A DNA stretch of 64,000 nt from positions 1,276,001-1,340,000 of the forward strand of contig JAPMOS010000002.1 of NCBI GenBank assembly GCA_027972325.1. Direction: 5' to 3'. The stretch is from Paratrimastix pyriformis (Eukaryota > Preaxostyla > Paratrimastigidae). The notes under the pieces were generated by a model. The model saw only the letters and a program-made list of their open reading frames with translations, was not told the origin of the DNA and made no database searches. A program made the position numbers and the translations under genes. Of this stretch, positions 1,129 to 63,893 are shown piece by piece (positions within the stretch are counted from its first letter, which is position 1; every line of letters begins with the position of its first letter).

Positions 1129-2691
1129 TCATCGGGTCGCGGCCAGTGCCGCGGCCGCGGAAGGGGCGAAGGAGGGCGAGGGCGGTCCCACCGAGACCAG
1201 CGGGGCGGGCGGGGCCTGACGAGCCGGCAGCCCCATGTCCGTCGTTGGGGTTGGGCCCTCGCCTTCGTACAGGGCGGGGCTCTCGTACAGGGCGGGGCCG
1301 GGGCGCTGCGGGAATGCCGGTAAGAACCAGGCCAGGACGTTCCTGCGCCCGCCGCCAGATGCCCCCAGGGGATCAGCCGACGCACCTCGGACCAGCCGCC
1401 GCCCCGCAGGGATTCAGGGACCGGCCGATAGGCACACAGACCGGCGGCCCATGGAAAAGGCTTCCCGCAGATTGGCTGCCACACCCCGGTCGTAGGGGTT
1501 CCTGTAGCCCTGCACGGCAGCAAGGCACGCACGGGCCACAGAACACGTCCGTGTGGGACCGATTCGAGGTGGAGGCGGCGGGGAGGGGGAGGGGCAGACC
1601 GGGATCCGCTTGCGCCGCTCGATGTTGGCGTAGAACTCGATGGTGGTCTGGTTGGTGGCGCACAGGTACAGCTGCGACCACCCCGGGACAGGTAGCCACC
1701 CGATGATGGTCTTGCGGGTGGCGCACGCACAGGGAGGCGGGGCCCACAGGGAGGCCCACAGGGAAGCGAGGCGGTGCTGCACACGAAGGCCTCTCGGCGG
1801 GTGCCCTCCAATTGGAGGGCAGACGGACCTGCATCCCAAGGAGTGGCGTCAGGGCCAGGGTGATGGCCGTGGCCGTGGCGAAGATGACCAGCACCAGCAC
1901 CAGCTCGATGCTGCCGTCGACCGAATTCTGCGCCACCAACGCCATCCGCCATCCGCGTCGGGGTGAGGAGAGGAGCGGGAGGAGGAGCGGGACGGGCAGT
2001 GGTGAGAGGGGCCGGCAAAGGCATGATGCAGGGTCAGGACCGACCCAGTTGGACCGCACCACGGGGAGCGCCATGACCACCACGTAGAGGGCGCCGATGT
2101 AGAGGTAAACCATGAAGAGCACGAAGAACCGCATGTTGGCCTCCCCCACGCAGCCCGCAATCCAGGGGCCTGCGAGCGGAACGTGGGGCAGCGCGATCAT
2201 ATGGGCAATGCAAGAGGTGCGGCTGGAGGCGCAGACAGTGGTGGTCCATCTTGCGGATGCAGCCCCCGCACTGGCGGCAGTGGTGCGCCCGGAGCGGCTT
2301 CCGGATGCCGCAACGGCGGCACAGCGGATCGAAGCCCTCGCCCGTCTTGGGGTCCACTGGGACGCAGTCATCCTATACTTTCGAGGTGCAGGGGACTCGG
2401 TCCCACCAGACAGACCGCCGGGGGGGTGGGACGCTCCGGATCAGCCTTCGGGACGTTATTCCATTTTCGGGACCGATGACAAATGGCAAAATTCCAGAGG
2501 ACGTTAAATAGGAGGAAAATAGCGAAGCATACGTGGAGAAGGAGCCGAAGACAAAAATGCGGGAAAACGAGGGGGTAAATGATCACCATGGCTGGGAGAG
2601 CAACAAAAAACACCATTGCCACAACGAAAAAAGGAAAAAATGGGCTGATTTTGGCCAAGATGAGGTCCGAGATCCCAATCAGGAGGTCCAT
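1129..2691 (-). CDS. DHHC-type protein S-palmitoyltransferase
   Basis: Membrane enzyme that transfers palmitate to protein cysteines. Seven exons fit in phase: 2691-2455, 2372-2237, 2169-2045, 1927-1829, 1671-1600, 1509-1442 and 1342-1129. The N-terminus holds two hydrophobic segments. The zinc-binding cysteine-rich domain follows: C-R-R-C-G..KP-L-R-A-H-H-C..C..C-I-R-K-M-D-H-H-C-P-W. The catalytic DHHC codon for Cys is split by the second intron. Two further membrane segments follow (FFVLFMVYLYIGALY and LVLVLVIFATATAITL), then the family TTxE motif as NQTTIEFYANIER, and NPYDRGVAANLREAF. The C-terminal exon (NVLAWFLPAFP) matches the usual end of the catalytic core, followed by a Pro/Ala-rich tail. 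The start ATG at 2691 is 68 bp from the divergent HAD-phosphatase ATG. All six introns have GTC donors. Substrate and membrane location cannot be read. Confidence 0.93.
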
Positions 2692-2759
2692 GAGAACAAA
2701 CCCGGCGAGTCCTGCCGGATTGTAGGCTGCGTTACCCCTTGGCTATTCCGACAAATCTG
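2692..2759. promoter_or_regulatory. Bidirectional promoter between DHHC and HAD-phosphatase genes
   Basis: Only 68 bp separate the two divergent start codons, so both core promoters and 5' leaders must fit here or overlap the opposite gene. It lies in an AT-richer valley (about 2480-3200). I see no TATA box or other known motif. Confidence 0.55.
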
Positions 2760-4287
2760 ATGGCAATTTGGGTTTTTCTCGACTTGGATGGCTCGCTGAT
2801 CTTCAGAAGAAAAGGAGAGCGAGAGGATCATTACCACGCTGATTTGATGATACCAGGGTTTTCCATATTTTATCGGCCAGGGTGCATCGATTTTCTCCGC
2901 GCCTTGGCCGGCGAGCCGCGGATTGTCCTTAACATATACACAAGTATGACTGAAAGAAATGCGCGACTTATTGTTGACAAACTCATCGAGGAAGCACTTC
3001 TACCGCCCTCAATTTTCCGAATATTTTCCCGGGACTGGAATCAGCCCGATCCCGAAGGGAGCAAACCTTGGGATACAATGCGCGATTTCGATTTAATATT
3101 TAGAAGTTTTCCCGACTGTAATGAGCAGAATTCTATTGTGATCGACGACGAATCTGTCTGATTCTCTCTCTTGTTCTCCTCCTGATCCGTCTCAGAGAAA
3201 GGTGCGCCTACTTCTTGACAACCTCATTTTGGTGCCTTCGTACGAGTGGGCGAATGTATTGGGTACTCACCCACAGGCTCCCTGCTCGCCCCTGGGGCCT
3301 GGTTCCCCGCCTTTTTCATCGCCCTCGCCCTCGCCCTCTCCCGAACAGCCCCCAGCATCCCTCCTCGCCGATTCGCCGCCCTGCCCTTCGGGACCCTCTT
3401 CCTCTCCGATGTGCTCTTCCTCAATCCCCGCCCCCACTTCCCCGTCGTGCCAGACCCCGACTGCCACACCCGCAATCCCGCAATCCGATCTTGAAGCATC
3501 AGCACCAGCATCAGCATCAGCACCAACACCAGCATCAGCACCAACATCAGCATCAGCATCAGCACCACCGTCACCGTCACCGTCACCCTCATCACCGCCG
3601 CCGTTGTCATCGCCGCCACTGGCACTGCCATCACCGCCATCACCCACTCGGCCATCACCGACCCCCCTTGCCCCGCCCGACCAGAAGGACCGCTACCCCG
3701 CGGCTGCGGCTGCGGGTGTGGTGCCAGCCGCTCCGGCTCCCCCGGTGCCCACATCCGCCCCCGCCCCTGGTGGGGGTCCCGAGAGCGACGCTGAGGCGGC
3801 CCTGCTGCCTGCCCTGGCCCGGCACCTGCTGATGGTGGCCCGTGACCTGCCCAGCGGAGCCGACGTGCGGCCCTTCCTGCGGGCCCACCCCTTCGCCCTC
3901 TCGCCCCCCCTGCCGCCCCCCTCCTCCTCGCCCGTCCGCTCGCCACCGTCCCGCGCCCGCATCCACCCTCGGCACGAACCTCGCGGGTGGGACCGTCCCG
4001 AGTGTCACGGGTGGGAGGGACCCGTATGGGGGCTGGGCTATGGGCGGGCCCGTCTCGAGGAGCCCCCGCCGCGGGACTGCCGCCTTCGGCCGGACCGGCA
4101 CCTTCAGCCCGACCGCTGGCCCGGCTGCCCATCCCCAGCTTCCTGGGGGGACCCTCGGGACCCCGCCCCACGCCCGCCTCCCCTCGACGGCTGGGCGCGG
4201 ACCGGCTGGGACCCCGCCCCACGTGAGCCTCCCCCCGAGGGCTGGGACGCCCCGGTCGGCGGCTGGGACCCACAGGTCTTCCGCTGA
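2760..4287 (+). CDS. NIF/FCP1-like HAD phosphatase with Pro/Ser-rich insert
   Basis: HAD-superfamily phosphatase of the TFIIF-interacting CTD-phosphatase (SCP/FCP1) type, acting on phospho-Ser/Thr proteins. Exons are 2760-3155 and 3196-4287. Motif I is D-L-D-G-S near residue 7 (family DxDx(T/V), here with Ser as the fifth residue). Next come the family YRPGCIDFLRAL block, motif II as LNIYTSM, and the acidic motif as SIVIDDES, split by the intron. The expected C-terminal helix block (DAEAALLPALARHL..ARDLPSGADVRPFL) appears only after about 170 residues of Pro/Ser/Ala-rich sequence, so the core fold seems to carry a large low-complexity insert. That insert stays in frame but could hide an unrecognised intron. 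A Trp/Pro/Arg-rich tail with repeated GWD-like units ends the protein. The start was chosen at ATG 2760 because MAIWVFLDLDG places motif I normally. Confidence 0.8.
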
Positions 4288-5665
4288 GCAAAAAATCTGG
4301 CATGCCCAGCGCTCCCAGCACAGATCCCCCCGACCGGCGAGCCGCGGCGTTGGCGGGCGGGGTGCTGATGCATGCGTGCATGTTCAGGGCGGGGGGGGTG
4401 GGCGGAAGAACAGAACAACAATGTGCGCAAACGGGGGATGGGACGCGGACGGGGCCTGACGGCCCGATGACATCCACCACTGGGATGACCCGAGAGCAGA
4501 GGGAGAAAGTCGACAAGCCACCCAAGGCAGCAACCCATGCGGAGCTCAGGGGGGCGGGGGGAGCTCGCCCCGGCCAGGGGGACGAAGGCCGGGGAAGAAC
4601 GGACCGGATCGGACCCGAAGAAAAACAGCAGTCCGACAACAACGACAGCAACGGCATCACCAAAAAAAAAAAAAGACAAACAAACAGACGACAGACAGAA
4701 AGAAAGACGACAGACAGACAGACAGACAGACAAAGGCAAAACGACACAATGCAAAGCAAATCGAAGCAAATCAAATCAAAGCAAATCGAAGCAGCAAAAA
4801 ACAAGGAAAATACCAAAAAGCAAAGCAAAGGGAAAACGGGGGAAACAGAAGCGGAGGCGGAGGCGGAGGAAGCGGCGGGCGCAGAAAAGAAACCGAAGCC
4901 CAAGCGGCACCGAGGCCGATCCCGAGGGCGGCGCGGAAAAGGCAGAGGCGGCAGGGGGCCAGAGGGGCCAGCTGGGGGAGGGGCGGAGGGCAAAAACGAC
5001 AAGGCCGGGGTGGGAGGGGAGCCGGGGGCCCGGCCCAAACAAACAGAGGCCCACCCGCGCGCCTTTTGGAGGAAGGCACGCAGGGCGGCCCAACAGAAGA
5101 GAGGGGAGGGGAGGGGAGGAAGGGCGAAGGGGAGGATACCTGCAGGCGGCCGGGGCGGGCAGAGGGGAAGGCCGTCGGGTTGTTGGCAAGCGGAAGGGGG
5201 CGGGGGGATGGATGGATAGAACAACCAAAAGACCACCGGCACAAGCAGGTGGGGCAGCGCATCGAGGAGGAGGAAGATGAGGAGGGGAAGGGGAAGGGGA
5301 AGGGGAAGGGAAGTGCCAGTGGAGAGCCAACGCACGACCGAACCGACCACAGGAAACCACCCAGACGAAGACCCGACGAAGACCCGACGAAGACCCGACG
5401 AAGACCCGACGAAGACACCGACCCGAGACCCGAGACCCGAGACCGGCCATGGGGAGAAGCGAGTCAACCACCAAAGAAAGACCGTAAGACAAACAGGGGG
5501 CGCCGGCGACGCCCCGAAAAAGGAGAGAAGGCGAGGGAGCGAGCGCCCCAGAGGAGCAGGAGCGCTGAGACGGGGGAGGGGAGGGGAGGGGATGGGGGAG
5601 GGCGAGCAGTCCACAAGGGGGGAAGAAAGGCTGCCTGAGAAACCAAACCGGACACCATACAAACA

Positions 5666-5699
<34 letters not shown>

Positions 5700-6310
5700 G
5701 GACCACGAAGGGCTAGTAGCAGGCCGAACAGCACGCAGCCACTCAGCCAGCATGCCGCATGGGCCGCCCGGGGCGGGCCGGCAAGCCGAACAAAGACACG
5801 CGTGAAGCAGCCGACCCAACGGCCCCGCAGCCACACGCGCCACGCCATGCGCCCAGACATGGCCGCAAAGGCCCATCGGCCATGCGCGAGCAGAGGCGGC
5901 GCACTACACGTAGGCGGGGGAGGAGGAGGGGAGGGGAGGGAGTCAACCAGCGGGGGAAAAAACCAACAGCGCGCCACAGGGGCGGGGGGGGGGGGGGGGG
6001 GGGGGTGGAGGCCAACCAAAGAAAACGACCACGGGCAGACAGGGCAGACGGGGCAGACAGGACACGCACGGGCAGACAGACAGCACGCGCGCAGGCGCAC
6101 AGCACAATCAAAAACGGCGAGCAGAGGGTGGGGGCGGAGGATGAGGACGGGTATGGACAAAGCCAGAGTCAGGGTCAGGGTTGCAGACAGGCGGCCGGAT
6201 GGGCCTGCGGAGAGAGCGGAGGGGAGAGCAGCGAACCGTGCGAGCCGTAGACAAAAAGGCGCAGGATGAGATCGATCCGTGGGAGTTGCAGGGGCGAATG
6301 AGGCGGGCCA

Positions 6311-6355
<45 letters not shown>

Positions 6356-6382
6356 CGCTGGGCGGGTGGATCGATTACCTCG
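4288..6382. other. Convergent intergenic region filled with simple repeats
   Basis: No believable gene is seen on either strand across about 2.1 kb between two 3' ends. The + strand is strongly purine and A/C biased. It contains (GACA)n near 4695-4730, a GGGAAG-type run near 5285-5305, five copies of a 12-bp GACGAAGACCC-like unit (5363-5415), (CCAG)n at 5665-5698, poly-G at about 5986-6005, and (GGCT)n at 6311-6355. A 978-codon open frame exists on the - strand, but its composition (Pro/Leu/Ser/Phe/Cys) shows no domain and it looks like a by-product of strand bias. Confidence 0.6.
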
Positions 6383-11231
<4,849 letters not shown>

Positions 11232-11311
11232 TCAAAGACGACGTCGCCAGGGTGTGTCAGACTCATCCAGTGTTCAACTTTTCAAAAACGTGACAAAGCA
11301 GCATCGAAAAA

Positions 11312-14235
11312 CTAAGCATCAAAACCATCTGTGAGAGGCAAAATGTTGTCGCGGCCCGTCAGGGAATCCAATAGTGCCCCACGAACAACAGAATCGCCCA
11401 CGGCACCAATCCAGTCCGAATTGGCGGCCTCAACATCGAAGCGGCCCGTCTCGAACTCGACAAAATGTTCCTCTTCTTGACGCCTCCGCACCCTGCTCGC
11501 TGCGGGCGGCTTAGAGGTCGCCGTCTGTGCCGAAGAGGCTGCTCCCGGGGCCGCTTGAACGCCCCCATAGCCCGGCCAGGCCTGGGCGTAGTACTGGGCA
11601 TACCACGCCTGCCACTGCTGCTGCTGCTGGGCAGTGGCTACGGGCTGCGCTCCGGCAGGGCCCATCAGGGGCCGCGTCAGACCCGACGGATCGGCGCCGC
11701 TCCTGCGGAAAGCCCGCCCAATCATGCCATGCAATCATGCAGGGGCAGCCCCACCATCAGCAGGGAGAAACGGCAGCCGCGAGATCGCCGGCGGAGCGGG
11801 ATGGGGGATGGGGGATGGGGATGGGGATGGGGGATGGGGGATGGGGGATGGGGGATGGGTGTGCGGACATTGCCATCTGGGCGGCCTGCTGCTGCTGGAG
11901 GAGCTGGGCGTGCGGGGGCAGCACAGAGGGCGGCTTCTGGGGGGAGCGGCCCCACGAGCACCGCACCCGATGCGACCCTGCCAGGACCGGGTGCGAAGGC
12001 GAGCGGCCGACCGAGGGCCCAATGAACGGATGCGAGTGGGGCGGGCGGTGGCAATCCGTCGGGCACGGGGGGCGCGGGGGCGGACCGATGACCTGGCCGT
12101 TCATGTCGCTGATGGCCCGCTCGGCCGAGGGGCGCGTCATGAACTGGACGAAGCCGCACCCCTTGCCCACAGGGATCTTCACGTAGGCGATGCTCCCGTA
12201 CACCATGAAGACCCTGCCCACCACCCCCGCGCCGGAGCGGATGACGTGGCGATCGAAGGGGGCAGCCGGGGTGGGCGTGATGGGTATGGGGCCGCAACGC
12301 CGCACCGGGGTGGGAGACGAGGAGGGGGTGGCAAGGGCGGCAGGGCGGTGGCGGTCGCCGGGTGGCGAGTGCCTGTGGACGGACCGGCGCAGCTCGAGGT
12401 CGTCGACGGAGGGGTCCAGGTTGCCGATGAAGACGGTCGTATTGTTGGGGTCGTTGGCGTCCACCATCGCTGTGGTCCGGGCCACGTGCCGGGGGCCGGG
12501 CAGCGGTGGTGGGTGGCGTGAGGAGCAGAGAGACGCGAGGTGAGCACGGGCCGCCACTCCGGCCGGGCTGAGGCGACCGAGCCGAGATGGGGCAGGGGCA
12601 GGGGCAGGGGCAGGGGCAGGGGCAGGGGCAGGGGCAGGGGCAGGGGCAGGGGCAGGGGCAGGGGCAGGGGCAGGGGCAGGGGCAGGGGCAGGGGCAGGGG
12701 CAGGGGCCAGTGGCCAGTGGCCAGGGGGCCACCAGGGGCCAGGCAGGGGCAATGCTGCAGGGGCGGGGCGCAGACTGGAGCTGCCTGCGCCCTCGCGGGC
12801 CGGGGGCGGCGCCGAGCCCTGGGCCGTGGCGTTGGCCCCGGTGGCCGTCGAGCCGGTGCCGGTGCCACTCCCGATGCCGGGCATGGCTGCCCCCGCGGCA
12901 ACACGATATGGAGGGCAGGGTGAGGGAAGCCAGGGCAGAAGTGGGAGTGGGCGGGCGGTGGGGGCGGTGTGGGGGCGGTGGGGACGGGGCAGGGACGGGG
13001 CAGGGACGGACCCTTCCTGGGGGTGGCCGTGCGGATGCGCATGGGCTGGCCCTGGCAGTAGACGCCCTCCATCTCCGAGAGGGCCCGCTTGTAGTCCTCC
13101 TCCCCGTTGAACCGCACGAACCCAAAGCCTGCCCACGCACGCCCACATCGGCCCCATCATCCCATCGGCCCAGACGCATCAACGGGTGAGGCACGATCGC
13201 TCCACCCTCGCACTGCCATCCGGATGTGGGGCGGAGGGGGATGTGGGGCGGAGGGGGACGTGGGGACGTGGGGACGTGGGGACGTGGGGACGTGGGGACG
13301 TGGGGACGTGGGGATGTGGGGCGGAGGGGGACGTGGGGACGTGGGGACGTGGGGACGTGGGGACGGAAGGGAGACCTTTGCTCTGGCCGTTGGCGTCGCA
13401 GACGACCTTGGCGTTCTTCACGGACGGGTATTGGGAGATGAACGTTTGCTGCCCAAAGCAGAGGGGCCCGCAGGAGACGAGCCATCGATGAGACTCTCCA
13501 GCCATCCGTGCCGACCACCCCCCTTTGTTGCCACCTCCCTCCCTCATCTCCCTCACCTCCCCTCTTGGGCACGAGGGCTGGAGGCGGACCAGCAGGACGA
13601 AGTCCGAGACGGTGGGGGCCAGGTCGCCCACGAAGATGGCGAACTCCTCGCCCCCGGCCCGGTCCCCACGGTCCCCCCGATCCCGATCCCGGTCCCGGTC
13701 CCGGTCCCCCGACCCCTGGAGCGGCGCCAGGCCCACGGGGGTCACGGCGATGCCCGAAGACGAGGACCTGCGCCCCGATCAGCCCGGTCCCCAGCAGGAA
13801 ACAAGCCATACACGCATTCATGGATGCCTGGGTGCCAGAGGGTGCAAGGGTCGCTGCCGTTGGGGCGGAGCGGACTTTGAGGAGCCATATGCGGCCCAGT
13901 TCAAGCGGAAACAGCGGGACGTGCCCGGGATGGGCTGGCCGTTGCACTGGGTCAGGGCCCTCTGAGCCGAGAAGTGGTTGGTCTGGGAGGGGTTGTCGAA
14001 CAGGAAATGAGTTCGATGTCTGAGGACACAAACAGACAAAGTCAATGAATCCGTAGCCAGCCGGGAGCCCTGTGTTCTTGTCTCGTATTATCTTGACATT
14101 GGTCACCTCCCCGCTGTGTGCGAAGAGCCCCGCAATGAAGTGTTCGTCCATATAAGCATCAAGATCTCCAATCCAAAGGGAAGAGATCCCCTCGCTGGAA
14201 GCCGCACCATGGTCGGGTGGTGGCGTCCCTTGCAT
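11312..14235 (-). CDS. Three-RRM RNA-binding protein, TRNAU1AP/RBP45/Nam8-like
   Basis: RNA-binding protein of the family that includes human TRNAU1AP, plant RBP45/47 and yeast Nam8 (U1 snRNP, tRNA-Sec or poly(A) RNA roles). RRM1 begins SLWIGDLDAYMDEHFI, matching the family signature LWMGDLxPYMDE, followed by KIIRDKNTGLPAGYGFIDF. RRM2 is EEFAIFVGDLAPTVSDFVL, then SVKNAKVVCDANGQSKG and RFNGEEDYKRALSEMEG. RRM3 is NTTVFIGNLDPSVDDLEL, then VYGSIAYVKIPVGKGCGFVQF. The C-terminal exon is Gln/Trp/Tyr-rich (QWQAWYAQYYAQAWPGYGG), typical of the family, and ends with a divergent acidic tail. Introns carry GGGGCA and GTGGGGAC arrays. The start ATG at 14235 is 219 bp from the 3' end of the PHP gene upstream; the stop is 80 bp from the SMG9-like start. 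Family is sure; exact role is not. Confidence 0.88.
12592..12707. repeat. (GGGGCA)n hexamer array
   Basis: About nineteen tandem GGGGCA units within the RNA-binding protein gene, most likely intronic because they lie between the RRM2 and RRM3 exons. Pure C/T with G on the sense strand (TGCCCC). Confidence 0.9.
13258..13365. repeat. GTGGGGAC octamer array
   Basis: Tandem 8-bp GTGGGGAC units, interrupted once by a GGATGTGGGGCGGAGG segment that also occurs just upstream. It sits between two exons of RRM2 in the RNA-binding protein gene. Confidence 0.9.
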
Positions 14236-14454: not shown

Positions 14455-15807
14455 TTAACTGGACTGGGCGAGGGAGGACCAAGTAGTCTTCAGATCAGGC
14501 CGTGCAGCGAGAAGCGCTTCAAGGAGTCCCCGGGTTTGCTGGGCCCAGGGGGCAGCCGACCACTCCCGCATCCCCTCGAGGGTGTGAATGTCGCCCCCGC
14601 CGCCCATCACAACGGGTGGCATCCGGGTGCGGAGCCGCTCCGCGATGTCCCGGGCTGCCGCCCTGTCGGCTGCGTCACGCTCCTTCCCAAAAACCACCTC
14701 GATCCCTGAGCAGCCCGCGATCCCCCGAGAGAGAGAGAGTGAGTGAGTGAGTGAGTGGGTGAGAGAGATGCGAGATGCGAGATGCGAGAAGGGGCGGACC
14801 ATCGAAGCGCCCCTCGGCGAGCATCTGCTCGGCCATGGCCAGCGGGATCTTGCTCTTGCAGGTGCAGGGGTGGGCCAAGATGGCCAGGCCGCCCGCCTCG
14901 CGGATCAGCCGGACGCACGAGTCCATGTCCAGCGTGTACTTGTACTCGACGTACACCCCAGGGATGAAGGCCCCGTCGGCCAGGAAGAGCGTGTAGGGCT
15001 CCTGGGTGGGCTCGTCCAGGATGCGCTGGTAGCGCTCCTGCTCTGGGCCGCCAGGCGCATGCGCTCCTTCAGCTGGGCCATCACAGCCTGGTTCTCGGGG
15101 CGGACGGGCGGCCGGCTGGTCGCACTTTGCGACGGGTGGATGCCCTATGGCGATGCCGCGAGCCCAAAGGTCGCTTGTGAAAGGCGGAGGGGAAGGAGAG
15201 GGGGAGAGGGGGAGGAGGGGGAGGAGGAGGGGAGGAGGAGGGAGGAGGGGGGAGGTGGCATACAGACCAGCGCTCGCACAATGTGTGGCCGGCCAACGGA
15301 CTCGCCCTCGCTGGCGAGCAAGCAATCAGCCTCGCTGATCGAAAACCCGAGCCGCCGGAGATTGGCCACCATCTCAGCCATCCGCTCGATCCGGGCTTGC
15401 TTGGAACGAGCGCACTAAAGCGGGGTCAGTGGCGGACAGCTGGACACCGGCGGACATGATCGATCAGAGTCTGGTTCTCTGGGTTGACGAAAATGCCCAC
15501 GATGTGCAGCCCGGAGTAAGGTTGCCCGCCAAGCTCTTTGGGAAGGCCAGAAGACATTTCTTGAGGAGACAAAAGCATGAAAGGGCGCGTATATACAAAA
15601 CGAACCAATGCCAACGATCCACTTTGGCAGCGCCGGGTTTTCACGGCTCAAATCCCGAAGGTGCGTAACAGTGGACAAAGAAGGAAGAGAGTCATGATCG
15701 GTAAAACCAACAATGCCAATGCCGTTCGCCGCGGCCTCATTTAAAAATGTTTCGTGGCTCATCTCTCCGTCACTGGCAGTTGTGTGATTATGCAAGGATT
15801 CGAGCAT
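14455..15807 (-). CDS. PHP-domain phosphoesterase
   Basis: Metal-dependent phosphoesterase of the polymerase/histidinol-phosphatase (PHP) superfamily, similar to bacterial YciV/RNase AM-type enzymes. Five exons fit in phase: 15807-15606, 15559-15456, 15414-15268, 15144-14800 and 14705-14455. Metal-binding motifs are visible: LHNHTTASDG (motif 1), GFTDHDS (motif 2), VGIEMSS with GLHIVGIF (motif 3), and AGGLAILAHP (motif 4), followed by FDGIEVVFGKERD and the closing VVMGGGGDIH. There is one oddity. In the fourth exon MAQLKERMRLAAQ and EQERYQRILDEP are in different frames, explained by loss of one base in the C/G run near 15042-15048; this is probably a sequence error. The start ATG 15807 is 47 bp from the divergent primase-like start. 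Confidence 0.9.
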
Positions 15808-19751: not shown

Positions 19752-19824
<73 letters not shown>

Positions 19825-33832: not shown

Positions 33833-34250
33833 ATGTTGCTGAAAGTTAAGACTCTGACCGGCAGCGAGCTCGAGTTCGATATTCAGTCGACTGACACTGT
33901 CTGTGACGACTTCTTCATCGCATAAGCCTCACACATTTTCCATTTAACGGTGTTCTCGACTCAGGTTAACTCCATTAAGGAGAAGGTCGAAGAGAAGCTT
34001 GGCATTGCAACTGCCCAGTCTGTGCACATTTCCCCCCTTTTTTTTTTTTTTCTACTATAATTTTCGTGAATTGTGAATGCGGCATCCTTCCAGGCAACGG
34101 CTCATTTTCGGCGGGCGCCCCCTGTCTGTGCAGTTTTTCTGTTTCCTCGGCTTTTTTCGAACACTTAAAACACTTAGGAGCGACGAGAAGACTGCCCAAG
34201 ATTACGGGATCACCGCTGGTGCTGTTATTCACCTTGTCCTTCAGCTGTAA
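33833..34250 (+). CDS. NEDD8-like ubiquitin-family protein lacking the C-terminal Gly-Gly
   Basis: Four exons fit in phase: 33833-33898, 33965-34017, 34094-34123 and 34178-34250 (TAA), giving 73 residues. MLLKVKTLTGSELEFDIQST and the segment from NSIKEKVEEKLGI through QQRLIFGGRPLSDEKTAQDY to GAVIHLVLQL align end to end with NEDD8 ([20 protein letters not shown]..., [20 protein letters not shown]). NEDD8 ends LVLALRGG; here translation stops after LVLQL, so the di-glycine needed for conjugation is absent. The last codons read CTG TAA, and CT followed by GTAAAA could be a donor. I found no acceptor followed by an Arg-Gly-Gly end before the next gene. It may be a non-conjugated paralogue. Its ATG lies 4 bp from the divergent GTPase-fusion ATG. 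Confidence 0.85.
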
Positions 34251-43618: not shown

Positions 43619-46549
43619 TTAGTCGACCTCATCGACGGCCGGCTTGGCGCTGCCGGCGCTGGGGTTGGCGCCGCTGTCGGGGCCGGGAGCCGCGTTCCCC
43701 TGGGGGGCGGCGCCCTCGGCGGGGGGCGGCCGGGCGGCGGCCTCCTTCTCGGCCTGCTCCTTGTGCATCCGGACGAGGATGGGGTGGGCCAGGGCCTCGA
43801 GCTCCTTGTACTTGGCGTCGTACTCGGGCTTCTCGTGGCGGTCGTCGATCCAGCGGAGGGCCTGGTCGCACAGCTCCCGGACCCGGTCCCGGTCCTCGGC
43901 CGGGATCTTGTCGCCGCTCTGGTCCATGGTCCCCTTCAGCGAGTAGGCAAAGTTCTGCGGGCACCCCACCAAGCCGGGGACCGATAATGAAGAACAGGCT
44001 GCCAGGGCCGCGAGGGCTGCCAGGGCGGACCTCGAGGGAGTTCTTTGCCTCGACCCGGTCCCGGACGGCCTCGTCCTCGGCCTTGAGGCGGTCGGCCTCC
44101 TCCACCAGGCGGTCGATGTCCTGCCGCGAGAGGCGGCCCTTCTCGGAGGCGATGGTGATCTGGTTCTTGGCCCCGCCCGACCGGCCCATCTCCTCGGCCG
44201 TCACCTGCAGCACACTGCCCCCCCGCAAGGCAAGCCCCATCCGCCATACCCCAAAGGGCCCACGCCGCGCAAGGATGGCTGAGGGACGCCGCGCCTCGAC
44301 AGGGGCATATGCAAGGTGGGGGCGGAGAGTGGGGGTCTACCGACCCGTTGGCGTCGACGTCGAAGGTGACCTGGATGCGGGGCTGGGCGCGGGGGGCCGG
44401 GGGGATGCCGCACAGGTCGAACTTGCCCAGCAGGTTGTTCTCCCGGGCCCGGGCCCGCTCGCCTTCGTACACCTTGACGGTCACCTGCCCGGCACGGATG
44501 CACGGATGCACGGATGGATGGCGGGCGGCAAAGAGAACCACGAGGACGCCGTGAGGAAAGAAGCATGGACCGACTGGCGACCGTGCGCCAAGCAGGGGGC
44601 AGGGGGCAGGGGCAGGGGCAGGGGCAGGGGCAGGGGCAGGGGGCAGGTGGGCAGGTGGGCAGGTGGGCAGGACCTTGTCCTGGTTATCGGCGGAGGTGCT
44701 GAAGGTCATGGACTTCTGCACGGGGACGGTGGTGTTGCGCTTGATGAGGGTCGTCATGACCCCGCCCGCCGTCTCGACCCCGATCGAGAGGGGCACCACA
44801 TCCAGCAGCAGCAGGTCGGCGGCCTTTTCGCCGGCGTTGCCCTTGAGGATGGCCGCCTGGACGGCGGCCCCGTAGGCGACGGCCTCGTCGGGGTTGATGC
44901 TCTTGTTGGGCTCCTTGCCCCCGAAGAACTCCTTCAGCATCTGCTGGATCTTGGGGATGCGCGACGAGCCGCCCACCAGCACCACCTCGTCGATCTGCTC
45001 CTTGCTCAGGCCCGAGTCGGCCAGGGCCCGCTGCAGGGGCTCCTTGGTCTTGTGGAACTCGTACTCGGCCAGCGACTCGAACCGGGCCCGCGTCAGGGTC
45101 TGCAGCCCCCCCGCCGTGATGCAGCCCCCCCCCCCCCAGCCCAGCCCAGCCCAGCCCAACCCAACCCAACAAATAGGGAATGAGCCATTTGCTGGGGCGG
45201 GGACTCCCGGGCGGCGGGTGGGGGTCGGGCGGACCGTGGTGTAGTCGATGCCCTGAGTAGAGCGAGTCCACCTCGATGGTGGCCTGGGTGGAGCTGGACA
45301 GGGTCCGCTTGGCCCGCTCGCAGGCGGTTCGCAGGCGGCGGATGGCGCGCTGGTTCTGGTCGATGTCGGCGGCCTCGCGGTGGGACCGCTTGAACTCCTG
45401 CAGGCAGTGGTTGACCAGCAGGTTGTCCAGGTCCTCGCCCCGAGGTGGGTGTTGCCCGCGGTGGACTTGACCTCGAAGACCCCGTCCGCGATGACCAGCA
45501 CCGAGACGTCCAGCGTGCCCCGCCGTAGTCGAAGATCAGGATGCGCTGCTCGCCCTTGCCCTTCTTGTCCAGCCCGTACGCGATGGCGCTGGCCGTGGGC
45601 TCGTTGATCATGCTGCACGGGGGGGGGGGGGGGGGGGGGGCAACAGAAGACGGCGGGAGATGCACGAGACAGGGTGAGTGAGTGAGTGAGTGGTGGTGGT
45701 GGGGGGGGGGGGGGGGGGCTCCAGCGGGGCGAAAGGCAGACCGCATGACGTTCAGGCCGGCGATGGTTCCTGCATCCCGAGTGGCTTGGCGTTGGGAATC
45801 GTTCTGCGAGATTGAGAAAGAGCCGCCAGCAGCAGCGGAGCAGTGAGGCCCGTGACGGGGTGCGCGGCAAGGGGTGCGCGCGGCAGGGCAGCATGGTTCG
45901 GGCGGGAAGAGGCGGCCAGAGCAGGAAGAGGTTTCGCACGGACGAAATAGGCGGGGCAGGTCACAACAGCGTCATAGACAGTCTCCCCAAGGAAAGCTTC
46001 GGCAGTCTCCTTGAGCTTGGCCAGAACCATCGAGGAGATCTCCTCGGGGGGGAATTCACGGGCCTCTCCCTTATATTGCACCTGAACAACAGGCTTGTCG
46101 CCAGATCGCTGGATCACCTTAAACGGCCAGTGCTTCATATCATTCTGGAGTTCCTCATCGGAGAAGCGGCGCCCGATCATACGTTTGGCATCAAACACAG
46201 TGTTGGCCGGGTTCATGGCCACCTGGTTTCTGGCGGCATCACCAATCAGACGCTCCTCCGCGGTGAATGCAACGTACGAGGGGGTTGTGCGATTGCCCTA
46301 TTCGAACACAATGACGAGGAAAATGCATAAAAGCGGAGCCAGCGGACCTGGTCATTCGGAATGATTTCCACTAAGCAGCATGACCAAATAAGTTGCGGGA
46401 AGAGTCGGGGACAAAAGAGATTTAGATGGACGATGACAGATTTCAAGCAGACCTTGATCGTTTCTCCAGACGGCAACGCACGAGAAGGTCGTACCCAAGT
46501 CGATACCAATCGCATATTGGCCTTGAGTCGGACCGGATTGAGTCGTCAT
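43619..46549 (-). CDS. Cytosolic HSP70 chaperone
   Basis: ATP-driven folding chaperone. It starts [20 protein letters not shown] (46549) with the HSP70 signature [91 protein letters not shown] and [20 protein letters not shown] all fit the ATPase domain. [20 protein letters not shown] begins the substrate-binding domain. The protein ends AVDEVD, close to the EEVD tail of cytosolic HSP70. At least six introns, with two long G runs (C on the sense strand) at 45619-45640 and 45700-45718. The frame breaks three times at short G/C runs in conserved sequence (45518-45521 and 45438-45441, each short by one base; 45251-45253, one base too many), most likely sequencing or assembly errors in an otherwise intact gene. 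Confidence 0.95.
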
Positions 46550-46790: not shown

Positions 46791-50199
<3,409 letters not shown>

Positions 50200-50205
50200 C
50201 AGTGC

Positions 50206-51323: not shown

Positions 51324-53083
51324 GGCCACTGTATCCGACCCCCGTGATGTTCGGTCTGGATTTCCCCTTAACATAGCTCACCATAAGAAATTTATATACC
51401 CTCAGGTACGCTTTCTCTGTGGAATGGTTTGATGTCAACGCACAAATGAACCGCCCCTATTCTCTTTTTTATTATACGGTTGATGATACCATTGAGATGG
51501 TTTGGCTAAATCCATTTGTTTTCATTTTTTTGACGTTTTGCGTCCCATTTTTTCTTGTAGTTCGACTTGAGGAACCATCGGATGTTCCTGAAGCGCTGTA
51601 AATACCCATCCCTTCGGCTGGCCGACTTGTTTGTTGGTGCGAGCGTTGTTGTCTTCGCACGGCAATTGAAAGTGACCGGGTATGCAGACGATTTCACCCG
51701 GTCTCAACTGGATACTCGCAAGGAGAAGTCCGATTCTGATTCGTCAACCGACCTTTGAACTCATCCTCTTTTTCCGGATGCAGGACCTGTGCCATTATTA
51801 AGCCGCACTGCTACGAGAAGATCGGTGTCATTTTGGAGGCGTTCCAGCAGGCGGGGCTGGTGGTGGCGCACATGCGCTCCCTCAAGCTGACCCGCGACCA
51901 GCTCGCCGAGGGGTTCCAGCATCTTCACGAGCAGCCCACGTTTTCGTCTGTCCTCGTGTGCCACTTCCTCCCCGCCTCCACCCCTCGCATGGTTCGCTCA
52001 CACCCGCGCGCTCACCCGCACTCTTTTGCTCCTTCTCCGCCGGCTGGACCGGGTCCAGGGAGCTCCTGGATTCCATGGCCGAGGATTTCGCGGTGGCGCT
52101 GGAGCTTGTTGGCCCGAACGCCGTCCGGGCGCTCCAGGATCTCGCCGGTCTGTCGGCCCCGCGCCCCCCCGCCCTCAAGCCGGTCGGTTGCAGGGCCCGC
52201 CAACCCGGAGGAGGCCCGCGCCCGGGCGCCGACCTCGCTCCGAGCCCGGTACGGCCGGGACGGGGCCCAAAACGCCGTCCATGTCTCGGCCACGGCCGAT
52301 GCGGCCGAGCGGGAGATCCGGTTCTTCCTGGGGTCGCCCTTCCCCGCCACGGCCACCTGCCGCGACTGCACCCTCTGCTGCGTCCTGCCCCATGCCCACG
52401 CTGCTGGTCCGTGCCCCGGATGCGATGGCTCGAACAAACAGTTCAGGAGAGAGGGCAAGGTAGGAGGGTGTACACGCAAGCTTTCGTTCCATCACCTCGC
52501 ATCCCCTCTCGCTGCTGCCTGCTGCTGGTGGCAGGGCACACGGGGGCCATCCTGAACACGATCCTGGAGGAGGGCTTCGAGGTGAGCGCCATCGAGCTGA
52601 CTCAGCTCGACCGGGCCAACGCCTCGGAGTTCCTCGAGGTCTACCGGACCGTCGTCCCCGAATACACCGTCCGTCGCCACCCGCCCTGGCTCCCTCGGCT
52701 TGCTTCATCACGCGCCCCTCACCCCAGAGCATGGTTGACGAGCTGTGCAACGGACCCGTCGTCGTCTGCGAGGTGCGTGGCGAGAACGTGGTCCCGGTCC
52801 GCCCCTCCCGCCTCTGTCACCCTCGCCACCGCTCCAGCCGTCACCCATGGCCCCTCAGCCCTCAGCCCGCTGACCTCGCCTCTTGCGGGCACTCGAACAG
52901 TCGTTCCGGGAGCTGTGTGGGCCCGTCGACCCCGAGGTGGCCAAACACATCCGCCCGCAGTCCGTCCGCGCCAGGTGGGGCGAAAGCAAAATCCGAAATG
53001 CTGTTCACTGCACGGATCTTCCAGAGGACGGCGTTTTGGAGGTCCGGATTCGCATCTTTCTGTCGCTCAACCAGGCTTCCTGA
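51322..53083 (+). CDS. NME7: NME7-type nucleoside diphosphate kinase with DM10 domain
   Basis: Ciliary NDK-family protein, known elsewhere as a gamma-tubulin ring complex and axonemal inner-junction component. Exons fit in phase: 51322-51353, 51406-51499, 51561-51727, 51784-51945, 52059-52147, 52194-52406, 52535-52668, 52728-about 52792, then about 52900-53083. The DM10 domain is YAFSVEWFDVNAQMNRPYSL with MFDLRNHRMFLKRCKYPSL and ADLFVGASVVVFARQLKVTG. NDK domain A is TCAIIKPHCYEKIGVILEAF to GPANPEEAR and NAVHVSATADAAEREIRFFL. Domain B runs from TGAILNTILEEGFEVSAIEL to CGPVDPEVAKHIRPQSVRAR and SKIRNAVHCTDLPEDGVLEV. NAVH in both domains keeps the catalytic-type His. Alignment with human NME7 is nearly end to end. 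Seven introns have GTC or GTT donors. Confidence 0.95.
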
Positions 53084-55859: not shown

Positions 55860-55962
55860 CGTCGGCCTGTGGGGTTCTCGAGCGCATGTAGTCGACACAT
55901 CGTGTCAATCGTTGTTCATTCGCGTGTTGGGTGCGGAAGAAGTTGCCTCTTCAGGTGCTCGT

Positions 55963-58900: not shown

Positions 58901-61900
58901 CGCGATCGCGCTCGTCGCTGCTGCGCTTCATTCTCGTCTCGTCTCGTCTCGTCTCGTCTCGCCCCGTCTCGCCCCCCCCCCCCCCCCCCCCCCCCTCCCA
59001 CGTCCCGTGGCAGGACTACTGCGCCACAAATACCTACGAATGCATGGGCTCGCTGGCCGACGGCGACTCGGCTGGTTTCGAGACTTGCCGCCAGTGGTCC
59101 GGATCGCCGTCACTCCATCTCATCCCCTCGGCCCCTCGGCCCGCCCCACCTCACCGTGCATTCGGCCCTTCATCGGACTGTGTCGTGCGGCTCCGTGTGG
59201 GCTGCCCAGGAAGCTGCAGTGCGACGACTTCTGCGCCAACCCGCCCTCGGACCAGGAGCTGTGCCTGATGGGCTGCACAGAGACATTCGATGGCTGCTCG
59301 GCCGCGTGCGGAGCCACCCCGACCGAAGACTGCCTGATGGGCTGCCGCATCCAACGGCAGACGTGCCGCAACCAGTGCGACAGCCTGGCCTCCCAGGGCG
59401 CCGGCGCGGCCAACGGCACGGTCAGTCGCGTCCCCCGGCTCGGGGCCTCGGGGTCGCCACATGGCATCCTCGCTCCTCGTTGCTCACCGCCCCATCCCTT
59501 CCTCGTCCCCTCGTCCCCTCGTCCTCCTTGTCCTCCTCCCCCTTCTCCTATGCCCGCAGTCGAGCCCCTGCACGAACAGCTGCGCTGCCTCCTTTGACAC
59601 CTGCAGCGGGAAGTGTGCCTCCAACAATGACGCCTGCTTCGAGGGATGCCGCACCTTGCGCAAGACCTGCCTCGAGGGATGTGCCGCTGGCACCACCCCC
59701 ACCCCGACCTCGAACAGCACCGCCACCGCGCCCACGACCACGGCCCAGGTGCTGACATGCTACGGCACCTGCGACAGCAACCAGAACGTGTGCTTCGACC
59801 AGTGCGACACGTTCGCCCCCTGCGAAGACGCCTGCCTGAGGGTCCACAAGGACTGCAAGACCAAGTGCGACGCCACCGGTGGCTCCGCTTTGGGTCTGTC
59901 CAGGCCCATCCGCCATGCCATCCGCATGGTCAGCCAGCCAAACGAGAGCGGAACGGCACCACAGAAAGGGTCGCACCTCACGAACGAGGGGAACGCTCGA
60001 GCACCGTGAGGGCACTCGGAGGGCCAACCAGCCCAGCCAGGCACGCCCAGGCGCATGCATGCACTGCCCCCTTGCCATACATGTACCCCTTACCCCTTGC
60101 CATACATGTACCCCTCCCACCCACACCAACGCAGCGACCCCCCTCGTGGCATCGCCTGTGCCCTCGGGAACTGGTGACACGAGTGCGTCGGCTCCTGTGA
60201 TGGTCCGTGTGTCTGGCCCTCTTGGATGGACTCATACTCACCGGCCCTTTCCCCTTGTCTTTCCTTTGTCTTTCCTTTGTCTTTCCTTTGTCTTTCCTTT
60301 GTCTTTCCTTTGTCTTTCCTTTGTCTTTCCTTTGTCTTTCGTTTGTCTTCTCCCGGCCCCCGTTCAGACGGCTGCCCAGTGCTCGGTCTGGTCATCTACC
60401 CGCTTGCTCCTTCGCCCACTCGTTGTTGTGCTCTGCGATTTCATTTCCCCCTCTCCCGCTGCCCCAGGAGGAGTCCCTGACCTGCCAGGACGGGTGCCGC
60501 AACACGTATTCCACCTGCCGCACCAAGTGCATCACATCCGCGGCTGCGGGATGTTCGACGACCTGCTCGACGACCCGCGACGGCTGCACGGCCAAGTGCC
60601 AGGACACCGCCCGCGCCTGCACGGCCAAGGCAGCCTCGACGCCGCTCTCCTCCAATCCGGGTACCACCACCGGCACCACCGGCACGGGGACCGGGACCGG
60701 GACGAGTGGCAGTGGAAGCACCTCAAGCGGAGGCTCCTCGGGCATTGTCTACAACCCCGCAACAGGCACCACCACGGGCACCACCAAGCCTTCCACGGGC
60801 ACGGGCACGGGCACCACCACGGGCACGGGCACCACCACGGGCACGGGCACCACCACGGGCACTGGGACCGCCACTGGGGCTGGGAGCACGGGTACCACCG
60901 GCACCGGATCGACCCCGTCGGGCAGCACGGGCGGCACCACTTCCGGGGGCAGCCCCGCAGCCACCACGCCGGTCGTGTTCAACCCCGACGACACCGATGC
61001 CGACACCCTCCGCATCTGCCAGAGCTATTGCACCATGTCCCAAAACCGGTGCAAGCAGGAATGCGGGTCCGTCCCGCCCGTCTTCGCTTCCGCTGACCTG
61101 TGCTCATCCGCCTGGCAGGTATGCCCCGTATGCGGCCTGCACCACCGAGTGCGATCAGCACGCCACCCAATGCAACGGCGCCTGTGCGACCGGAGCCGAG
61201 CCGCCCGACCAGCTGCCCGACCAGCCCCGCTGGACGCAGTGCGGTCTGTGCCCTGCCGTCATGGCCCCGTGACACCAATGGTGGGCTCCAAGGCAGAGTA
61301 CAGCCGATGACCCATCGGACGGGTCGCGCTGCCGAGTTGCTCCGGACCCCTGCTCCATCCTCCTTCCCTTCCCCATTCACATACCCGTTCCTTCCCCACT
61401 CACATACCCGTTCTTCCTTCCCCTTCCCCACTCACATACCCGTTCCTTCCCCACTCACATACCCGTTCCATTCCCGCCCTGCCGGCGTAGTCGACGCGGC
61501 CAACCAGATTTTCAACCTTTGCGCCAGCAAGTGCGCCGCTGCGGATGTCCGCTAAATCCCCTCCTCCACTCGTCCCCACCCGCTCCTCCATCCGTCCCGC
61601 TCGCCCGCCCACCCACCTTCATCCCGATGGCTCATCTGCTGTGATGGTGGTGGTGCAGGATGCTTGCTTTGAGCTTTGCCGCACTCAGCGCAAGGTTCCG
61701 CTCGGTCCGTGTGCATCACCCTCCCCTCCGCCCCAGCCCCTCCCCAGCCCATGAGCCGCCCGTAACTTTGGGTTTGTGCTTGATGGTGCACAGAGAACTG
61801 CAACAAGATCTACGGCGGTCCGTACGCCTCCACGGACGTGCCCGCCCAGCAGGATCTGCCCAACAGCATCCTGGTCCGTCACCCTATCTGCCTGCCCCCT

Positions 61901-63425
61901 GCCCCCCGCCCCCCTCCTGTGCCTGCCCCCCTCCCTGTGCCTGCCCCACTCCCTGTGCCTGCCCCCCTCCCTGTGCCTGCCTGCCTGCCTGTGCCTGCCA
62001 GCCACCGCATCTGGGCCTGGCTGACTTGGATGTCCTGTTGCTGGTGGGCCAGCTGCAAGTGTGCCAGGGCAGCTGCAACACGCTGATGGCCCAGTGCCAG
62101 GGCAAGTGCACCGAGACGTCCGGCGGCTCGTGCGACGACGCGTGCGTCCAGCAGATGCGCTCCTGCTCCAATGGCTGCCAGAGGGACTACGGGGCAAGCA
62201 ATGCAACCACGGACACCACCACCACCACCACCACCAAGCCGTTGGTCTGTGGGAGCGGAACCGCTTGACGTGGTTGGTCGGAGAGGGGGAGCGGAGGGAG
62301 GGTCGAAACAAACTCACGCCCATGACCACTCGTCCCCGGCCCCCCCGCAGAATTGCGATGACGGCTGCTCGCAGACCATGAGCACATGCCTGACCCGGTG
62401 CAACCCCACCGACAGCTCCTGCAGCGCCGAGTGCACCGCCAGCATGCGCACTTGCCAGGAGGACTGCTCGCTTCCGAGCGACACGTGCGGTCGGGAGTGC
62501 GCCCGCATCCGCCTCAGCTGCATCGCCAGCTCGGCCACCCTGAGCGCCCAGCAGGTGTGCCAGCGGGACGAACTCGATGTCTGTGGGCGCCGCGGCACGG
62601 GCGGTGCGGGCAGCAAGGTTCCGACTCGTGCTCACGGGTGGCTATTTGGGCTGGGCGTTTGCAGTGCAACACCGAGTGCCTCAACTCAGCGCCACCCGAG
62701 TGCATCGCCAGCTGCGACAGCGCATACACAGCGGGCGTGGGAGCCTGCGCGGACACCGAGTGCAGCGACCGGTCTCTGCGCTTGTACAAGAGTTGCCGCC
62801 AGCAGTGCGTTGACGACGCCTACGCTGCCGGCTACTATGACCAACCCACCTCGGAGCCTTTGAGTGGAACCACGCCCACGACCACCACCACGCCCACGAC
62901 CACCACCCCCACGACCACCACCCCACGACCACCACCCCACCACCCCACCACCACCACCCCCACCCCCACCACCACCACCACCCCCACCACCCCCGACCAC
63001 GACCACCACCCCCACGACCACGACCACCACGACCACCACCCCCACGACCACCAACAAGGTCACGAGCACCGGGGTTCCTACAACGCCCACCGAGTGCAAG
63101 GCCTGGTGCGACTACACCGACCTGGACGGGTGCATGGACGCGGTCACGGCCCTGCAGCTCTCCTCGAACGCCTACCAGACGTGCTGGGATCGGAACGAAG
63201 CCTGCGGCACAGCTTGCGCCTCTGGGGACACCGCGACGGTCTGCCTCCACCCCCCCTAAGCTGTCCTGACCCTTCGGTCCCTAGCTCACGGTCCTGGGCT
63301 GCAACTACCGATGCGAGACGACCCAGGTGGCCTGCGTTCGGAAATGCGGCTCTGGGAACCTGCCATGCAAAAACACCTGCAAGAGCGCAGCAAGCAGCTG
63401 TGTTGATAAGTGCCTCGCAATGTAG
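55963..63425 (+). CDS. Large secreted cysteine-ladder protein (C-x3-C-x6 repeats)
   Basis: Unrecognised extracellular or surface protein. It begins with a signal peptide (SRASIALWVLSLTTLISCSV). Some twenty exons then each encode a cysteine module with an 11-residue period, C-x3-C-x6-C-x3-C-x6. Clear examples: CAQYCSKQFDSCGSLCGSAN continuing at 57955-58066; CTNSCAASFDTCSGKCASNN at 59570-59690; CDDGCSQTMSTCLTRCNPTD at 62350-62530; and the last, CNYRCETTQVACVRKCGSGN at 63300-63425. Others lie at 56052-56240, 56561-56700, 56785-56930, 57033-57190, 57690-57830, 58178-58310, 59215-59395, 60470-60625 and 62050-62185. Gly/Thr-rich linkers (60660-60970, 62860-63060) look like O-glycosylated stalks. 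Cys at i, i+4, i+11 suits a disulphide-stapled helical array. Exons 10-11 and 15-16 are less regular; some borders are unresolved. One gene is assumed because no 5' signature interrupts it. Confidence 0.7.
58972..58995 (+). repeat. Poly-C tract before a 3' splice site
   Basis: 24 C lie about 15 bases upstream of GGCAG followed by the exon GACTACTGCGCC in the cysteine-ladder gene, that is, in the polypyrimidine-tract position. Confidence 0.92.
60253..60348 (+). repeat. TTTGTCTTTCC decamer/undecamer array
   Basis: About nine tandem copies of a CTTTGTCTTTC-type unit on the sense strand within an intron of the cysteine-ladder gene. Confidence 0.92.
61370..61466 (+). repeat. Minisatellite, CCCACTCACATACCCGTTCC type
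   Basis: Four copies of a 20-27 bp unit in an intron of the cysteine-ladder gene. Confidence 0.88.
61917..61990 (+). repeat. CCTGTGCCTGCCCCCCTC minisatellite
   Basis: About five tandem 18-bp copies, the last ones shortening to CCTGCCTG. Intronic in the cysteine-ladder gene. Confidence 0.88.
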
Positions 63426-63582
63426 CATCCTATTTTCGCCACCCCTCTGTTTCAAATTCATGCATGGATTATTATCATGAGTTTATGCGGGAAAGACACT
63501 TCTCAGAAGAAAAATCCCGAAGTACGAACTAATAGCATAAGAGGACCGCGCAATGTGTTCCGGATGGGTGCAAAACCAACGC

Positions 63583-63893
63583 TTAGTTCTTACGACGGTA
63601 AGACATACCCTCAGCGAGGCGAGCCTTGCCGCCAGTGGGCTGGCAAACAACAGTCTGGCAGTTGCCGCAGAGGACAACAGTGGTGGCATGGCTGAACACA
63701 GTCATGCTAGAGAACGCATGGTGATGAACATACGAGGAAAAAGGAAGACAGACATGCGGTGGCAGGAAGGGCACTTAACGTCCATGAAGAACGAGTTGGG
63801 AGACTGGACGAGACGCTTCAACTTGTGCTTGCGGGCCTCATCATCCTTGCGGGGGTGCAGCAGGTCCTCCTTGAACTGATAGCGCTTCACCAT
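63583..63893 (-). CDS. RPS27: 40S ribosomal protein eS27 (RPS27)
   Basis: Small-subunit ribosomal protein with a C4 zinc finger. Two exons fit in phase, 63893-63754 and 63706-63583, giving 87 residues. [20 protein letters not shown] then [19 protein letters not shown] and [20 protein letters not shown] followed by SYRRKN match eukaryotic eS27 along the full length. The finger cysteines are CPSC and CGNC (with a further C). The single intron (63753-63707) has a GTCTGT donor and splits an Ile codon. It lies tail to tail with the cysteine-ladder gene, 157 bp apart. The remaining 107 bp to the window end hold no visible feature. Confidence 0.97.

Follow-up and report, generated by a model that had tools for sequence, protein, structure and literature searches.

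A U1 small nuclear RNA with a changed 5' end appears to match the shifted 5' splice sites of Paratrimastix pyriformis

A 64,000-nucleotide stretch of the Paratrimastix pyriformis genome (GenBank assembly GCA_027972325.1, contig JAPMOS010000002.1, positions 1,276,001 to 1,340,000; hereafter the window) raises the question of how introns with unusual 5' splice sites are recognized. A first-pass annotation of the window had read its donors as GTCYG in place of GTRAGT, and had suggested that U1, or recognition by U6 and Prp8, changed with them. Few RNA stretches in eukaryotes are as conserved as the 5' end of U1 small nuclear RNA (snRNA). Here we show from sequence that the predicted donors of P. 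pyriformis follow /GTC[C/T]G[C/T] (a slash outside brackets marks the exon-intron boundary). The pattern very probably reflects a recoding, specific to the lineage of this organism, of how its major spliceosome recognizes 5' splice sites; the donors and the U1 5' end both seem to have been rewritten genome-wide.

The cleaner of our two intron sets consists of 40 introns fixed by conserved protein sequence or by a transcript, with no splice model; junctions that could slide by one or two bases were placed at GT, and the exon ends of some models were taken from a gene finder before comparison with Pfam. Twenty-one lie in the window (three in a NEDD8-like gene, two NDK, one eS27, one RRM, four PHP, two DHHC, six Sec1-family and two HSP70). 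Their +3 base is C in 19, T in two and never a purine; +4 is T in 13, C in seven and G in one; +5 is G in 20 and C in one; +6 is T in 16 and C in five. The annotation had reported the same +3 and +5 figures from a partly different set of 21 window introns, and the eight donors it quoted (33899, 34018, 34124, 51946 and 52148 on the plus strand; 15455, 14799 and 63753 on the minus strand) are where it placed them. All 19 introns fixed outside the window (13 in Vps53 and two each in Prp8, a beta-eliminating lyase and NAP) have C at +3, and both Prp8 introns that were read are GTCCG[C/T]. Together, the 40 introns, of which 13 come from the single gene Vps53, have C at +3 in 38 cases, T in two and a purine in none; C (21), T (18) or G (1) at +4, and A in no case; G (39) or C (1) at +5; T (22), C (16) or A (2) at +6; and G at -1 in 24. 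None combines a purine at +3 with A at +4 and G at +5, as a canonical GTRAGT donor does. Their GT..AG ends, in a genome that carries U1, U2, U5 and U6, mark them as major U2-type introns, and the minor U12-type form ([A/G]TATCCTT) is found at 0 of the 40 donors.

Transcript and protein evidence from outside our own models agrees with this pattern. The spliced Sec1-family model is 99% identical, over the whole query, to P0123, a translation of transcript GAFH01001032; the GAFH set is a transcriptome of Trimastix (now Paratrimastix) pyriformis (PMC3596361). P0123 maps onto the window without mismatch. The NCBI-sourced Vps53 protein P0121 likewise aligns to the genome without mismatch, and the 13 introns that this implies can all be placed as GTC[C/T]G; published gene models of P. 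pyriformis drew on RNA-seq hints (PMC10703272). In the spliced DHHC, NDK, S27e, RRM, HSP70 and Sec1 models, matches to Pfam families span the junctions that were counted, and Pfam also matches the spliced lyase, NAP and kinase models and part of Vps53. The lyase gene (gene 18 of the sample from contig C441) carries GTC[C/T]G introns within its domain. One further model, gene 36, had no Pfam match. Neither did the spliced PHP model, for whose four junctions the evidence is the reading frame and our own reading. Three kinase introns (GTCTGC, GTCCGT, GTGGGC), one DHHC intron (GTCGGT) and two HSP70 introns (GTCGGT, GTGGAC) were left out of the 40, although they fall in Pfam-matched models, because their gene-finder junctions could not be fixed. 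Two further predictions in the NDK gene, both GTCCGT, were also left out. We read the GTGGAC call as exon sequence. With the kinase rows added, +3 is C in 40, T in two and G in one (n = 43).

Does the pattern hold when no donor is assumed? Raw hexamer counts in 264 kb are too weakly enriched to reveal donors (GTCTGT, 131 versus 96 expected), so a purpose-written gene finder (in C) was applied to the window and to 100 kb from each of contigs C441 and C24. When the donor model was flat and GT..AG was the sole requirement, it called 302 confident introns, with +3 C in 230, G in 44, T in 25 and A in three, and +5 G in 199. Donor and acceptor matrices were also learned by expectation maximization from four starts (flat, GTRAGT, GTATGT and GTCTGT). 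All four, GTRAGT included, converged on GTC[C/T]G[C/T], with C at 92-94% at +3, G at 84-85% at +5, C at 60-62% and T at 23-25% at +4, and C at 59-60% and T at 28-29% at +6. A hidden class of +3 purine donors is thus unsupported, as the run begun at GTRAGT moved off it. There are 343 confident introns in the gene-finder set (142 on C441, 129 on C24); 316 have C at +3, and the commonest donor is GTCCGC (116 of 343). The earlier statement that +4 is mostly C or T needs one correction: among these introns +4 and +6 are both C or T, and C is the commoner of the two. The gene finder joins genes wrongly and puts some introns in the wrong place, so its percentages carry noise. Its Vps53 model, for example, has nine introns, one with GTGCGC, whereas the NCBI protein gives 13 and none with such a donor; part of the +3 G in the gene-finder counts is thus miscalled.

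At the other end of the predicted introns of the window, C441 and C24, the acceptor is GCAG-like, with C at -3 in 87-88% and G at -4 in about 60%. A is depleted upstream of the acceptor, and there is no evident polypyrimidine tract. No branch-point motif appeared among the 5-mers enriched in intron tails; only G-rich words were enriched near the 3' end. The 264 kb sample holds six [A/G]TATCCTT words, and no TTCCTT[A/G]A[C/T] branch site lies within 400 bases of any of them.

If the donors have shifted, has U1 shifted with them? A search of the assembly (56.06 Mb in 495 contigs; the window is C112, 1276001-1340000) with the Rfam U1 model RF00003 found eight loci on eight contigs. These are near-identical copies that cover model positions 1-166 of 166, with E values of 3.7e-13 to 2.0e-10. 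The 5' end is AUACAGACCU in all eight, versus the canonical AUACUUACCU, and the extended start is ATACAGACCTTG in all eight, versus the Rfam consensus AUACUUACCUGG. Nucleotides 5 and 6 are A and G in every locus found, where the consensus has U and U, and these two nucleotides face donor positions +4 and +3. The U1 start ATACAGACCT, present in 8/8 loci, has the reverse complement AGGTCTGTAT, which is AG/GTCTGT. The first-pass annotation had proposed looking in the U1 and U6 genes for compensatory changes that face +3 and +4; they are present in U1, in exactly those nucleotides, which supports its interpretation, and the ACAGAGA box of U6 is unchanged. Two of the U1 loci are on C441 and C24, the source of 271 of the 343 gene-finder introns. 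That these loci are expressed, that their 5' end lies where we place it and that they function in splicing is something we infer from sequence, as is every step from pairing to function.

The predicted fold of one copy has a U1-like multiloop and a 3' hairpin. Read by eye, CAUAAUGUUUGG, which aligns to the consensus CAUAAUUUgUGG, is a possible Sm-type site before the 3' hairpin. An exact CCCATAAT lies 53-67 bases upstream of 6/8 U1, 4/4 U6, 3/7 U5 and 5/8 U2 loci read. In these genes the element often reads GTCCCATAATTTTTCC, and AATTCATAC at the presumed start is common to U1 and several U2 genes. Rfam tRNA matches lie less than 500 bases upstream of two U1 genes (L003:1031-1115 and L004:1007-1079). 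The variant U1 was not found in a scan of viral contigs.

The eight loci could be a variant class, with an unseen canonical U1 serving most introns. A published BUSCO of 76.3% leaves room for gaps in the assembly, the U1 search scored only 41 of its 992 candidates, and the canonical-end pattern ATACTTACCTG misses a canonical end followed by TG. That pattern occurs zero times on either strand of the 56 Mb assembly, and its reversed form occurs 57 times. A canonical-end copy with the same body should, by our reasoning, have outscored the eight loci in the Rfam search, and the donors fit the variant U1, not the canonical one. We regard a second, canonical U1 as highly improbable.

How well do the altered U1 and the donors fit each other? 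In the register used here, +6, +5, +4, +3, +2 and +1 face A3, C4, A5, G6, A7 and C8 of U1, and -1 and -2 face C9 and U10. CAG/GTCTGT forms 8/8 Watson-Crick pairs with the P. pyriformis U1 and six with canonical U1; CAG/GTAAGT forms six and eight, respectively, and CAG/GTCCGC six and five. When the mean duplex energy over the 343 donors is computed for all 16 dinucleotides at U1 positions 5-6, the actual AG ranks second (-6.94 kcal/mol), behind GG (-10.31) and ahead of CG (-6.86) and UG (-6.40), and the canonical UU is last (-3.15 kcal/mol). On these sequences C opposite G6 makes the predicted fit strong at +3; at +4 it is partial, as C outnumbers the T that pairs with A5.

When the bases at +7 to +26 serve as background, no base is enriched as much as T at +4 (1.52x) or at +6 (1.80x), as pairing with U1 A5 and A3 predicts; at these positions C stands at 1.12x and A at 0.16x. 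Nine tests of dependence between donor positions gave two with p < 0.05 uncorrected, -1 G with -2 A (0.002) and -1 G with +5 G (0.03). Both are positive, and thus no compensation is shown.

Several observations weigh against a U1 rewritten to suit its donors. C exceeds T at +4 (207 versus 80) and +6 (206 versus 95) of the 343 donors, although C would meet A in U1. C at +4 or +6 goes with a higher GC content of the intron (p 0.013 and 0.001), which suggests, though it does not prove, that mutational pressure acts where a mismatch is tolerated. A does not predominate at -2, opposite U10 (107/343). With G6 kept, A5 hardly beats C5 or U5, and G5 is far better; because the A5, C5 and U5 energies are close, G6 carries nearly all of the energy gain and A5 adds little on average. 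The lowest-energy fold of the naked RNA pairs nucleotides 4-8 with GUUUG in the Sm-site region, so that the 5' end is not free in this prediction. U1C was not found; the only zf-U1 match (L041, C86:24809) encodes a protein that we take, from its zinc finger and WW-like stretch, to be WBP4/FBP21-like, so that it does not show U1C to be present. U1-70K was not found in a search that its own controls show to be uninformative. U1-associated proteins were nearly absent from the metamonads surveyed in 2019 (PMC6679479). Finally, a joint change of donors and U1 in an intron-rich genome would still lack an explanation.

The U1 loci also score 50.8-60.2 bits, below the Rfam curated cut-off of 69.5 bits, as might be expected of pseudogenes or contamination with no relation to the introns. 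Against such an origin stand the eight near-identical copies, each on a contig of its own and two of them beside introns analyzed on the same contigs, the U1-like fold, and the upstream element shared with U2, U5 and U6. Among the explanations considered, this one is the least credible.

Could composition alone produce the donors, with GC-rich DNA placing C wherever it is tolerated, only GT and +5 G being recognized, and the U1 change a matter of neutral drift? The sampled 264 kb is 69% GC, versus 60.94% for the published assembly (56,627,582 bp in 633 scaffolds; PMC10703272). The twenty bases at +7 to +26 are 54% C, C at +4 and +6 tracks intron GC, and A5 contributes little to the mean energy. 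The +3 position does not follow composition. GT decoys are followed by C in 0.343 of 3,584 cases within predicted introns and in 0.426 of 3,916 within exons, and local composition would give 54%, versus 316 of 343 at predicted donors. T, though a pyrimidine, falls to 0.17x at +3, and A is as scarce at +4 and +6 as noted above. In 8/8 U1 loci found, moreover, G6 and A5 are the partners of +3 C and of the enriched +4 T, respectively. We consider composition alone very unlikely. Inosine at U1 A3 and A5 was considered as a reason for the preference for C; since local composition accounts for part of that preference, inosine is less needed as an explanation.

U2, U5 and U6 look ordinary at their contact sites. 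Four U6 loci have the usual box AUACAGAGA, with ACAGAGA kept, and seven U5 loci carry GCCTTTTAC. U2 is represented by nine loci above the cut-off and a fragment, with GTAGTA in 8/8 read. Some of these genes are clustered: C168 carries two U6 and three U5 loci, and C489 carries two U2 loci and the U2 fragment. Three exons of the Prp8 PROCN domain were read and match the family well, LUC7 matches occur on two contigs, and a METTL16-like gene with the NPPF motif is present. One U12 snRNA candidate (L051, C432:103301-103560, minus strand) scores 44.9 bits against a cut-off of 53 and carries the conserved UUAAUGAGUAAGGAAAAUA stretch and a ACUUUUUGGA Sm-like site; P. pyriformis may thus have a minor spliceosome.

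The intact U6 box invites another order of events, in which the donors first shifted toward the unchanged ACAGA box and U1 followed, with U6 and Prp8 as the main readers. This account overlaps with the one we prefer and differs from it in the sequence of changes. UCUGU is the exact complement of ACAGA, +4 U is already present in the relatives Streblomastix and Giardia, and a yeast study ties the +4 preference to METTL16 (PMC10581693), for which P. pyriformis has a similar gene. At positions +3 to +6, GTCTGT makes 4/4 pairs with the U6 box, GTATGT 3/4, and GTAAGT, GTGAGT and GTCCGC 2/4, so the most frequent donor, GTCCGC, is imperfect for U6 too. Retention of the METTL16-like gene is also unlike the prediction of a route through METTL16 loss. 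We think a U6-led order a real possibility, if the less probable one.

Under the recoding that we favor, U1 would pair with the donor through nucleotides 3-10, ACAGACCU: G6 would pair with +3 C and C4 with +5 G, and A5 and A3 would pair with U at +4 and +6 or tolerate C. Pairing with A would favor U, C would be tolerated, and GC pressure would fill the tolerated option. Passed on to U6, the donor would pair with the ACAGA box, where +3 C would gain a Watson-Crick pair that a purine could not give, with the nucleotide we take to be G44 in human numbering. The ancestor would have had GUAUGU-like donors with U at +4, a type reported in Streblomastix and Giardia. Nucleotides 5 and 6 of U1 would then have changed, successively or together, and the donors alongside, to leave a U1 5' end that carries the same word as the U6 box.

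This shared word allows a more speculative extension. The U1 end repeats the AUACAGA letters of the U6 box, and GUCUGU consequently complements both. In other eukaryotes U1 and U6 read two different donor words, and the consensus has to be a compromise between them. Here they might read one donor word, and the handover from U1 to U6 would need no trade-off, since GUCUGU is a perfect partner of each. The word may have been copied into U1 from U6 by gene conversion and not have arisen by two point changes. Because UACAGA is the core around the N6-methyladenosine of U6, the METTL16-like enzyme could also act on U1 A5, or A5 could carry some other modification, and this might explain why C is tolerated opposite it. 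Taken as a whole, this extension is tentative and we think it unlikely.

The window introns illustrate the pattern gene by gene. In the NEDD8-like gene (plus strand), introns at 33899..33964, 34018..34094 and 34124..34177 begin at ACT/GTCTGT, CCA/GTCTGT and CCT/GTCTGT, and over 100% of its length the spliced protein shares 66% identity with its best match among NEDD8/ubiquitin-like proteins. The six Sec1-family introns (minus strand), placed by the exact map of the transcript-derived P0123, are 50027..50075 (GTTTGT), 49834..49882 (GTCTGT), 49324..49444 (GTCCCC), 48359..48468 (GTCCGT), 47225..48247 (GTCTGT) and 46868..46914 (GTCTGT). The gene finder agrees on the third and fourth, and for the fifth it has the same donor with a different acceptor; its exon at window positions 47225-47751, made of LS, HL and IS dipeptide repeats, is intronic according to the transcript. 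Two successive introns of the NDK-domain (NME7-like) gene, 51946..52058 and 52148..52193 (plus strand; gene finder and Pfam), both begin GTCTGT. The other donors are on the minus strand. With Pfam support, they are CAT/GTCTGT at 63748..63753 in eS27, TTT/GTCTGT at 14032..14037 in the RRM-protein gene and GTCTGC at 2231..2236 in the DHHC gene, where the intron interrupts the motif as DHHC/PW. The gene finder and Pfam together support the DHHC intron 1672..1828 (CAG/GTCCGT) and the HSP70 introns 44215..44344 (GTCGGT) and 43955..44030 (GTCCGC). The PHP donors, in the model with no Pfam match, are GTTCGT at 15600..15605, GTCCGC at 15450..15455, GTCTGT at 15262..15267 and GTCCGC at 14794..14799, the last also called by the gene finder.

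If this interpretation is true, the code between U1 and the donor can be rewritten genome-wide in an intron-rich eukaryote. P. pyriformis would then be a compensatory-change experiment on U1-donor pairing that nature has run, and an instance in nature of six donor bases on which the demands of U1 and U6 no longer conflict. On its genome, gene finders may perform badly if GTRAGT donors were used to train them. The first Trimastix intron, 172 nt in Rpl7a, was published in 2005 (PMC1201135), and its donor could already show the GTC[C/T]G pattern. We found no earlier report of a joint U1 and donor change among the matches listed in the open-licence PMC literature on Paratrimastix and Trimastix, oxymonads, metamonad U1 and altered U1.

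Like the canonical system, that of P. pyriformis has a U1-like fold, a U1 5' end able to pair across the exon-intron junction, GT..AG introns, and canonical contact sites in U2, U5 and U6. It departs from that system in the A and G at U1 nucleotides 5-6 in place of U and U, in donors with +3 C and +4 C/T, and in U1 scores below the family cut-off. The U1 end is described as unchanged in Giardia, in two algal nucleomorphs, in 236 genomes of yeasts and outgroups, and in a tunicate whose introns are 95% non-GT/AG. Altered U1 RNAs are known: human variant U1 genes have been described, and in the diplonemid S. specki a normal U1 coexists with a second U1 that has a C-run 5' end (PMC12621601). S. 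specki thus resembles P. pyriformis in having a natural U1 with an altered 5' end, and differs in that no conserved copy was found in P. pyriformis. Closer relatives have GUAUGU-type donors, whose +4 U can, as here, pair with the U6 ACAGA box. The oxymonad Streblomastix has A, U and G at +3 to +5 (PMC1501061), and Giardia has a U1 with ACUUAC and a tolerated U-U mismatch (PMC3510501). Both have +3 A, and Giardia keeps U1 unchanged with a U-U mismatch, as in budding yeast, whereas P. pyriformis has +3 C and a changed U1. In Saccharomycotina, switches between A and U at +4 are likewise genome-wide donor shifts beside the U6 box. ACUUACC is invariant there wherever a U1 candidate was found (227/230 Saccharomycotina, 9/10 outgroups), and a change of U1 position 5 to A is named as a possible compensation for +4 U (PMC10581693); P. 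pyriformis has that A and a second change at position 6. The nucleomorph U1 RNAs of Guillardia and Bigelowiella keep the 5' end (PMC6461891). So, strictly, does that of Fritillaria borealis, despite its 95% non-GT/AG introns (PMC13326754); it shares with P. pyriformis a genome-wide departure in splice sites, and of the two only P. pyriformis has a changed U1 end. In the alga Cyanidioschyzon merolae, which is without U1 (PMC6461891), the U6 ACAGA box has changed (PMC10581693). There, as in P. pyriformis, an snRNA base that faces the donor is altered, in U6 in the alga and in U1, with U6 intact, in P. pyriformis.

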